Shown piece after piece: positions 18,151 through 19,500 of a stretch of 64,000 nt of DNA (the first letter of the stretch is position 1; the number at the start of each line of letters is the position of its first letter). The stretch lies in contig NZ_CP109603.1 of assembly GCF_025905425.1 (NCBI RefSeq), positions 4,108,501 to 4,172,500 of the forward strand. Direction: 5' to 3'. The position numbers and the translations under genes were made by a program. The notes beneath the pieces were generated by a model. That model was not told where the DNA came from and searched no databases. It was given only the letters and a program-made list of their open reading frames with translations. Origin of the DNA: Pseudomonas putida. GTDB lineage: Bacteria > Pseudomonadota > Gammaproteobacteria > Pseudomonadales > Pseudomonadaceae.

Positions 18151-18190
18151 CTGGGGCCGCTTTGCGGCCCATTCGCGGGGCAAGCCCGCT
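18151..18190. repeat. Left half of a REP pair, interrupted by the IS110 element
   Basis: A stem (GGGGCCGC/GCGGCCC) is followed by CCATTCGCGGGGCAAGCCCGCT. The normal continuation CCCACAG is absent here and reappears at 19434, after the insertion. Rejoining 18190 to 19434 gives a standard inverted REP pair with its partner at 19467-19500. Confidence 0.9.
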
Positions 18191-18218
18191 TGTGTCTTGG
18201 AGAGGGAATAGAATCTGA

Positions 18219-18378
18219 AGTGAGAGCGGTGAATGGCAAGCTGATAGCCCGAGGTGCCCAGAGCACGTGTGGGAGCAAAAGCTGCCATTCACCGTTCCAC
18301 TTTGGCGAGAGCCCGAACAGTTGGATGAGGGGCGTAATCTCGAATCACAAGCGTGGGCCAAGCCAAAGCGCTCTCACT
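18219..18378 (+). ncRNA. Predicted IS110 bridge RNA with target and donor loops
   Basis: Outer stem 18219-18228 / 18369-18378 (AGTGAGAGCG/CGCTCTCACT). First stem-loop: 18228-18237 pairs with 18284-18293 and 18239-18242 with 18280-18283, with a GTGC/GCAC apical hairpin. Its loop sides carry AGCCCG (18246-18251), identical to the left target flank, and TGTGGGAGC (18268-18276), the exact complement of GCTCCCACA across the core and right flank. Second stem: CTTTGGC 18300-18306 / GCCAAAG 18362-18368. It carries ACAGTTG (18317-18323), identical to the element's right end at 19425-19431, and CACAAGC (18346-18352), complementary to G-CT-TGTG at the joined ends. This is the organisation established for IS621-type bridge RNAs. 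Confidence 0.9.
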
Positions 18379-18402
18379 CCTTGAGTTTAAGAGGGTTTGG
18401 CC

Positions 18403-19338
18403 ATGTCTTCCTCTGTCGGCATCGATGTTTCCAGTGCCACACTTGCTGTTCACATCCGCCCTGAGGGGGTGAACTTCAGTGTTTCCAATGACTTGAAGGG
18501 ATTCCAACTGCTCGTCGAAAAGCTTGGCGGGTATGCAGTTTCAATGGTCTTGCTCGAAGCTACCGGTGGCTACGAGTGCAATGTCCTCAAAGCGCTGCAG
18601 GATGCCGATTTTCCGGTTTGCCGGATCAATCCCAGTCGTGCCCGGGACTTTGCCAAGTCGATGGGTAAACGCGCCAAGACCGATCCCATTGACGCAGCTG
18701 TTTTGGCTCACCTGGCTGAAGTTATGCCCCCACGGCCTTGCCAGGTGATGACACCCGAGCGGGCCTTGCTGCGCGAACTGCTTATGCAGCGGGATCGCTT
18801 CGTCCAACAGCGCGACGATGACAAGCGGCGCCTGAAGCAGGCGCGGGCTCCCAGTGTTTGTTTGCGGTTGGAACAACACATCGCCTATCTGAAGGGTGAA
18901 ATTCGAGCGCTGGAACAAGAGATCGCACAGCAGGCAGCAGCTTTGCCTGATGACCGGGTTAAACAGCTCACTCAAGTCAAAGGAATTGGTCTGATTACTG
19001 CCGGAAAGCTGATGGCCTTGCTGCCAGAGCTGGGCCAGGTGGATAAGAAGGAAATTGCCGCCTTGGTCGGTGTTGCGCCGTTCAACCAGGACAGCGGCAA
19101 GCAGTCGGGCAAGCGTTCAATCTGGGGGGGGCGCTCACAAGTCAGGCGGGCGCTCTATATGGCCTGCTGGGTGGTGATACGGCACAACAAGGACTTCTGC
19201 GAGCGCTACAAAGCACTGCGAGCCCAGGGGAAGTGCGCGAAAGTATCGGTGGTGGCGTGTATGCGAGTATTGATAGTGAGGCTAAATGCGATGCTCAAGA
19301 CCGGAACGCCCTGGAAGGAGCAAATAGCTCATTCGTAG
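18403..19338 (+). CDS. IS110-family transposase (DEDD recombinase)
   Basis: A 311-residue protein. The N-terminal RuvC-like DEDD domain shows GIDVSSATLAVHI (D), VLLEATGGYECNVLKAL (E) and RDFAKSMGKRAKTDPIDAAVLAHLAEVMPP (D..D). A helical middle (RDRFVQQRDDDKRRLKQ) is followed by the Tnp domain with a helix-hairpin-helix-like QVKGIGLITAGKLMALLPELGQV and FNQDSGKQSGKRSIWGGRSQVRRALYMACW, where the catalytic Ser of the family lies. ATG 18403 is chosen because GAGGG sits 8 bases upstream; a TTG lies two codons earlier. It appears intact. Its stop codon overlaps the start of a REP-like arm. Confidence 0.95.
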   Translation: MSSSVGIDVSSATLAVHIRPEGVNFSVSNDLKGFQLLVEKLGGYAVSMVLLEATGGYECNVLKALQDADFPVCRINPSRARDFAKSMGKRAKTDPIDAAVLAHLAEVMPPRPCQVMTPERALLRELLMQRDRFVQQRDDDKRRLKQARAPSVCLRLEQHIAYLKGEIRALEQEIAQQAAALPDDRVKQLTQVKGIGLITAGKLMALLPELGQVDKKEIAALVGVAPFNQDSGKQSGKRSIWGGRSQVRRALYMACWVVIRHNKDFCERYKALRAQGKCAKVSVVACMRVLIVRLNAMLKTGTPWKEQIAHS

Positions 19339-19420
19339 GAGCAAGCCTTGCTGGCGATGCCCGGCACAGCCGGGCCTGGGGCGCTACGCGCCCCATCGCC
19401 GGCAAGGCCAGCTTCCACAA
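19335..19420. repeat. Second-class REP inverted pair inside the IS right end
   Basis: GAGCAAGCCTTGCTGGCGATG (19339-19359) and CATCGCCGGCAAGGCCAGCTTC are inverted copies around a GC-rich centre with its own CCCGGC/GCCGGG and GGGGCGC/GCGCCCC stems. This class differs from the TTCGCGGGCAAGCCCGC class used as target. By the guide-defined right border it belongs to the IS element, not the flank. Confidence 0.75.
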
Positions 19421-19433
19421 GAAGACAGTTGCT

Positions 19434-19500
19434 CCCACAGCGCTGAACCCGAGGGTACGGTCTTTCCTGTGGGAGCGGGCTTGCCCCGCGAATGGGCTGC
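19434..19500. repeat. Right remainder of the interrupted REP and its inverted partner
   Basis: CCCACAG at 19434 completes the REP begun at 18169. After a 26-base centre, CTGTGGGAGCGGGCTTGCCC (19467 on) plus CGCGAATGGG is the inverted partner. A further GGCTGC/GCAGCC stem follows. The pair separated the MFS transporter from purT before the IS landed. Confidence 0.9.

Follow-up and report, generated by a model that had tools for sequence, protein, structure and literature searches.

The bridge RNA and its logic were published in 2024 (PMC11208160), and handshake guides have been described in the bridge RNA of IS621 (PMC11208158). Bridge-RNA structures are diverse (PMC11208160), and a promoter across the joined ends of the element has been described for IS110 elements including IS621. 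With regard to Pseudomonas putida, the insertion sequences ISPpu9 and ISPpu10 were reported in 2006 to lie in REPs, in seven of the seven copies of each (PMC1525189), and a figure legend of 2024 lists ISPpu10, together with ISPa11, among six elements with predicted guides (PMC11208160). Among the matches listed for open-licence papers since 2024, as represented by their titles and the starts of their abstracts, none reports experiments on a bridge RNA from P. putida.

In this section, we focus on an element of P. putida assembly GCF_025905425.1, whose genome comprises 6138339 bases in one contig. The window, namely the whole stretch of DNA analysed, spans 64,000 nt of the forward strand of NZ_CP109603.1 (positions 4,108,501-4,172,500). 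The element consists of a left end of 214 nt, a gene, and a right end of 93 nt finishing in ACAGTTG, and its features are as follows, in window coordinates:

18172..18188, forward strand: left part of the interrupted REP, TTCGCGGGGCAAGCCCG, whose last six letters, AGCCCG (18183-18188), are the left target
18189..19431, forward strand: insertion sequence of the IS110 group, 1243 bp long when a single CT core is counted, with 27 copies in the genome
18189..18190, forward strand: left copy of the CT core, from the junctions read in copies and relative loci
18209..18214, forward strand: TAGAAT, a hexamer resembling a -10 box, spaced 17 nt downstream of the TTGCTT that the right end would form on joining the left end
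18219..18378, forward strand: predicted bridge RNA, with an outer stem closing target-binding and donor-binding stem-loops
18246..18251, forward strand: left target guide AGCCCG, a top-strand copy, followed by AG and not by CT
18268..18275, forward strand: right target guide TGTGGGAG, complement of CTCCCACA, core AG included
18276-18277, forward strand: CA, letters at the handshake position of loop 1 (rule from PMC11208158)
18317..18323, forward strand: left donor guide ACAGTTG, identical to the right end at 19425-19431
18346..18351, forward strand: right donor guide CACAAG, complement of CTTGTG
18352-18353, forward strand: CG, letters at the handshake position of loop 2, directly after CACAAG
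18403..19338, forward strand: gene of the 311-aa DEDD recombinase (D8, E52, D94, D97; S231), stop included in the coordinates
19338..19424, forward strand: right end with a REP-like inverted pair, absent from the relatives of 1152-1154 bp (G010, G156, G262)
19425..19431, forward strand: left donor ACAGTTG, whose TTG would provide the circle with its -35-like box
19432..19439, forward strand: right CT core (19432-19433) and right target CCCACA, from the junction reading

As in the IS110 group, a long noncoding left end precedes the gene, and insertion is precise. The REP-like inverted pair of the element's own right end (19338-19424) reads GGAGCAAGCCTTGCTGGCGATG ... CATCGCCGGCAAGGCCAGCTTCCACAAG, and a similar pair is present in G289. 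Immediately to the right of the insertion (19469-19483 and beyond) there is a second, inverted REP, so that the element occupies one half of a REP pair. A search of plasmids with the element sequence returned no match, and the search by protein returned 2348 records, each below 60% identity.

The recombinase harbours the DEDD_Tnp_IS110 and Transposase_20 domains (76 and 62.8 bits, for Pfam cut-offs of 29 and 21.3), and scores 216.8 bits, against a cut-off of 140, with the NCBIfam model of IS110 RNA-guided transposases. Its matches in the PDB include ISCro4 (E 7e-31) and IS621 (E 1e-28, phmmer). Residues D8, E52, D94, D97 and S231 are kept in the catalytic columns shared with IS621; apart from the two residues cited below, the residue numbers of the IS621 catalytic site, and their shift of 2 relative to the chain, are presumed values. 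Judged by its domains and catalytic residues, the protein is a member of the IS110 group of the IS110 family. For IS621, the catalytic residues include D102 and S241 (PMC11208158).

An initial annotation of the locus had proposed four guide segments in the left end, and all of them are found in the predicted RNA of 160 nt, namely, AGCCCG at 18246, TGTGGGAGC at 18268, ACAGTTG at 18317 and CACAAGC at 18346. Loop 1 houses AGCCCG and TGTGGGAG, and loop 2 ACAGTTG and CACAAG. As it had proposed, RNA and flanks read with the left guides copying the top strand and the right guides complementing it, the latter carrying AG against the CT core. The extent of both right guides is revised here: TGTGGGAG complements CTCCCACA and CACAAG complements CTTGTG, but the C following AG, which had been counted in each guide, is placed at the handshake position. 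AGCCCG is present twice in the RNA, again at 18310 inside the donor-loop helix, and the other three segments once each. Following 20000 dinucleotide shuffles of the RNA, AGCCCG appeared in 2015, TGTGGGAG in 121, ACAGTTG in 259 and CACAAG in 1445 of them, and all four guides in order in none. The logic of IS621, as initially claimed, holds in order, polarity and the pairing of AG against CT, but not in its treatment of the core by the left target guide, which is followed by AG, CG, GA or AA and never by CT (0 of the 21 distinct left ends of the clade). The left donor guide, as read from the alignment, is likewise not followed by CT, and the core is thus not contained within all four guide pairings as it is in the IS621 model. 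In the window, the handshake reading pairs CA of loop 1 with donor TG and CG of loop 2 with target CG, i.e. four of four letters. Across the clade, the first letter of loop 1 fits in 21 of 21 cases but the second only in 7 of 21. Loop 2 misfits where targets end in C (L040, L041, L044, L045), so a handshake role of the letters that follow AG is suggestive only.

The RNA at 18219-18378 (160 nt) folds at -76.1 kcal/mol compared with a shuffle mean of -51.7 (z -6.2). Its complement folds nearly as well (z -5.9), and the fold alone therefore leaves the strand unfixed. The outer stem and two guide loops first read in the single sequence are borne out when 21 left ends are aligned (20 of them distinct within the RNA stretch): outer stem, target stem-loop and donor stem-loop are supported with 38 pairs and 99.1% of cells paired, predicted guide-guide pairs being excluded from the counted structure. 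Pairs changed on both sides number 10, versus a shuffle mean of 3.2, and pairing drops to 29-46% when one side is slid. Among five fold measures, four lie above all 500 shuffles; the fifth, further pair types, does not (17 versus 18.1, with 494 of the 500 as high). The compensatory changes sit in the target and donor stems, and the outer stem, with no pair changed on both sides, draws its support from conservation. A covariance model of the left end across relatives, a check put forward with the initial annotation, matches 18220-18377 at E 3.4e-33, the window being one of its 21 rows, and a scan of the window against Rfam at gathering scores gave no match. The two-loop fold expected of a bridge RNA is supported by co-change.

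The survey of the host genome revealed 27 matches to the left end, each with an identical right end at an identical distance; no orphan copy of the RNA occurs among them, as all have a right end. CT is found at both junctions of all 27 copies. The comparison of guides and flanks at each copy, suggested in advance, came out in favour of the guides, AGCCCG preceding CT in 26 copies out of 27 (L027 carries AACCCG), CTCCCACA following the element in 26 out of 27 (L025 carries CTCCCACC), and both expected flanks occurring together in 25. A standard REP arm, GCGGG, stands in front of 24 of the 27; the arm of L012 is a variant, and L025 and L026 have none. L025 lies outside a REP, with no REP on its left, yet its flanks, AGCCCG-CT-CCCACC, fit 13 of 14 guide letters, which argues that specificity follows the guides. 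L026 has no REP arm, but its right flank comes from a repeat family containing the target. The initial annotation had named identical guides at unrelated, non-REP sites as the observation that would speak against it; with 24 standard arms, the variant of L012, the repeat flank of L026 and the 13 of 14 letters of L025, none of the 27 copies sits at a site unrelated to the guides.

Exact AGCCCGCTCCCAC sites number 732 in the host genome (reversed control, none), and sites within one mismatch 990, versus 22 for the control. Of the 732 exact sites, 693 carry a REP arm, which would explain why REPs are hit. The element had been presented as a REP-directed recombinase, a description that agrees with the REP arm of 24 of the 27 copies but is better worded as guide-directed, REPs holding most guide matches. 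Among the 19 relative loci compared, an uninterrupted REP-like sequence is present at the orthologous place in five (L141, L151, L153, L154 and L155), which are those whose alignment runs through the insertion point. L012 and L026 have 22 letters of right flank in common, for which recombination between copies was considered and rejected; the flank instead represents a repeat family present at 13 places, whose unoccupied members, among those read, contain the target. This explains the right flanks of L012 and L026, but not the left flank of L026, which is unlike the longer repeat on its right. That longer repeat (L160-L169; 13 places in the host genome with at most two mismatches), found to the right of both L012 and L026, includes the target and CCCACAAAACTTTTCGTACAGAGCCT.

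Relatives were collected with a motif filter that kept 105 loci, among which several sites are represented twice. More divergent relatives did not pass the filter (e.g. L031, L035, L046-L057), and some of these were regained via the RNA model. The search with this model scored at most 10 candidates per genome, so that copy numbers from it are lower bounds (10 of 27 in the host); outside the alignment, ten of its loci were read, further copies in G095, G088, G265 and G269 being left aside. In these relatives, guides and targets change together. G018 has guide CATTCG at target AATTCG (five copies read), and a TGCCCC guide faces an AGCCCC target in G158 (two of three distinct readable flanks) and L135. 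G161 combines left guide CGTCCC and target CGCCCC with right guide TTAGGAAG against CTTCCTAC, fitting at 7 of 8 letters. The ten loci found by the RNA model and absent from its alignment form a held-out set, of which five (L191, L192, L193, L194, L195) are in register at 5 or 6 of 6 letters, L195 with left guide CAGCCG at target AAGCCG. Right guide AGTAGGAG of L185 fits flank CTCCTACA at 7 of 8, and its four readable left letters need a one-letter shift; L189 (AGCGCG at AGCGCG) fits 6 of 6 with such a shift, and L196, read by eye, fits only with a two-letter shift and CT included. L188 (3 of 6) and L190 (4 of 6) are misfits, and both have broken recombinase genes.

Other misfits concern G165, with guide TGCCCG at AGCCCC in three of three sites, as well as G188 and one G158 site, where AAGCCC faces TGCCCC (3 of 6 in register). 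In G289, guide AGCCCG lies at AACCCG in four of five readable left flanks and needs a G-T wobble; a non-canonical G-T pair has been described in the left guide of IS621 (PMC11208158), and the G289 and L027 sequences would fit such a wobble. When left guides and targets of 19 elements of this clade were re-paired, with G289, G165 and G188 taken as they are, the true pairing matched 94 of 114 letters (misfits included), compared with a mean of 80.6 and none as good in 200000, relatedness being kept in here as in all the tests below. Leaving out the weak G265 element (L030, from a draft scaffold that contains N and is duplicated internally) gave 88 of 108, with 11 of 200000 as good, relatedness again kept in. 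Guide classes with their commonest targets only match at 37 of 42 letters, as in 6 of 5040 orders, which is the number of orders giving the same pairing; adding five classes of a second clade gave 66 of 72 and 0 of 200000. Being confined to commonest targets, this class test covers neither G165 nor the AACCCG sites of G289 nor any AAGCCC site, and it omits one target each of G217 (out of two) and G188b (out of four). On the donor side, left guide and donor are identical across five donor classes, at 35 of 35 letters and in 1 of 120 orders, with misfits in L033 and L068, whose ACAGTTA lacks the last donor letter, and in G018, whose extra donor G is unmatched by the guide. In these sequences, the guides match target and donor and co-vary with them, exceptions being G165, G188, L188, L190 and the donor guide of L033 and L068.

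The second clade, IS621-like and from the same genus, comprises five elements (L098-L101 and L108-L117) read by given motifs, with left targets ending in GTACGCC, CCCACC, CGGCTC, CGCTC or TGCTC, and TGTGCC; in five of five, the left target guide is followed by CT, as in IS621. Bridge-RNA-like sequences with no intact recombinase gene adjoining were noticed at L189, L193 and L195, and at contig ends at L191, L192 and L194, where the sequence stops. L189 and L193 resemble remnants, and L195 gave no tblastn match at E 1e-3.

Across the joined ends, TTG of the right end is followed, after 17 nt, by TA(N)3T in each of the 21 distinct left ends. Agreement with TTGACA amounts to 3 of 6 positions (4 for G018), and that with TATAAT to between 3 and 5 of 6. 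The spacing is still 17 in G018, whose right end has one letter more and whose left end has one letter fewer. The first box of the integrated window copy reads CCGCTT. A promoter scan of both strands of the integrated element found none, at a threshold of 4 of 6 per hexamer that misses weak sites; as TTGCTT itself scores only 3, this result provides no contrast to the joined form.

The copies, the relatives, the fold and the recombinase support the bridge-RNA interpretation, and we consider it highly probable that the locus is an IS110-group element whose left end encodes the predicted bridge RNA. Its anatomy, guide matches, copies, co-change and fold can be read in the sequence itself, and our confidence is maintained because the re-pairing test stays clear with the misfits included. 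Fortuitous matches, or matches due to guides and targets both being REP-like, come to mind given that TGTGGGAG occurs 33 times and AGCCCG 77 times on the two strands of the window. Such an origin is hardly credible, as none of the 20000 shuffles holds the four guides in order, the donor guides match non-REP sequence, and relatives show co-change; the shuffle, donor-class and re-pairing tests all argue strongly against it. Another proposal is that the recombinase itself reads the REP DNA or its hairpin, left-end matches being relics of REP capture or serving the regulation of translation. The standard REP arm of 24 of the 27 copies, the REP-like pair in the element's right end and the control of transposase translation by two small RNAs from ISPpu9 (PMC8450116) would agree with this proposal, which we nevertheless regard as very improbable, since L025 fits the guides outside a REP, guide and target letters change together in relatives, and all four segments follow the order and polarity of the IS621 RNA.

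The left end might also act chiefly in regulation, as a 5' leader accompanied by an antisense RNA in the manner of Asr9 of ISPpu9, guiding being secondary. The leader of ISPpu9 measures 244 nt and its stable antisense RNA ~180 nt (PMC8450116), and the reverse strand of our element folds well too; this is unlikely as the main role, as it leaves the guide-target co-change unexplained, and the simple scan (4 of 6 per hexamer, weak sites missed) found no promoter-like site on either strand. A regulatory leader is compatible with guiding, to which it could add a layer.

For the preferred reading, a left end that encodes a bridge RNA, circle formation, transcription, chemistry and handshake are modelled on IS621. 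Upon excision, the ends would be joined at CT to form a circle and a putative promoter, TTGCTT-17-TAGAAT, from which an RNA of ~160 nt, and possibly also the recombinase gene behind it, would be transcribed. Loop 2 would hold the circle junction ACAGTTG-CT-TGTG for the recombinase, and loop 1 the genomic AGCCCG-CT-CCCACA site. S231 would then cut both top strands after CT, and strand exchange, aided by the handshake letters, would be followed by junction resolution. If insertion is guide-directed, wild-type guides should lead to insertion at AGCCCGCTCCCACA, and a left guide CATTCG, according to the G018 rule, to insertion at AATTCGCTCCCACA.

Compared with IS621, the element shares a left-end RNA, here a predicted one, with two loops, left guides copying the top strand and right guides complementing it with AG against CT, a DEDD and Ser recombinase, and a promoter, here a putative one, formed across the joined ends. 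It differs in that IS621 has a 5' stem-loop, whereas here a predicted outer stem closes both loops, the RNA probably starting near 18219; the 5' stem-loop of the IS621-type consensus is not seen in the predicted fold. The predicted left target guide has about six letters and excludes CT, versus nine in IS621 (A50-U58), and the predicted right target guide eight letters, versus four in IS621 (G77-G80) (PMC11208160, PMC11208158). As the published structures are diverse, we file the predicted RNA in the wider bridge-RNA family rather than as IS621-type. More tentatively, these features may represent the distinct layout of a clade, i.e. a closed two-loop RNA without the 5' stem-loop, whose left guides end short of the core and whose right target guide is long; the right guides alone would then choose the core, and left-guide wobble would let one RNA follow REP variants.

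Closer to home, ISPpu10 of P. putida KT2440 is likewise an IS110-family element found in a REP in seven of seven copies, with a 2-bp repeat and a published bridge-RNA guide prediction. The annotation gave no IS name for our element, which may be ISPpu10 or a relative; the two are compared by description. ISPpu9, also likened by description, shares the family, the insertion in REPs, a long leader and small RNAs from the element, but these RNAs were interpreted as translation regulators (PMC8450116). In front of its ssr9 RNA gene stand copies of the element's last 14 nt and first 41 nt (PMC8450116); this arrangement resembles a joined-ends junction, and ssr9 may be more than a regulator, namely, a copy of a bridge RNA. 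In the seekRNA of ISEc21 (IS110) and ISPa11 (IS1111), an RNA from the noncoding end selects the target; ISPa11 is the REP-targeting case in P. aeruginosa, but it belongs to the IS1111 group, in which the noncoding region usually lies downstream of the gene (PMC11187229).

The 27 insertions by one RNA, the 732 exact sites and the naturally changed guides form a data set for the specificity rules of a bridge recombinase with a long right guide, and for a mobile element that exploits an abundant repeat as a landing pad. In kind, the element adds another member to what was published as REP insertion in 2006, and as the bridge RNA and the ISPpu10 prediction in 2024; the principle being already known from these systems, its value resides in natural specificity data and in the guide layout of its clade.
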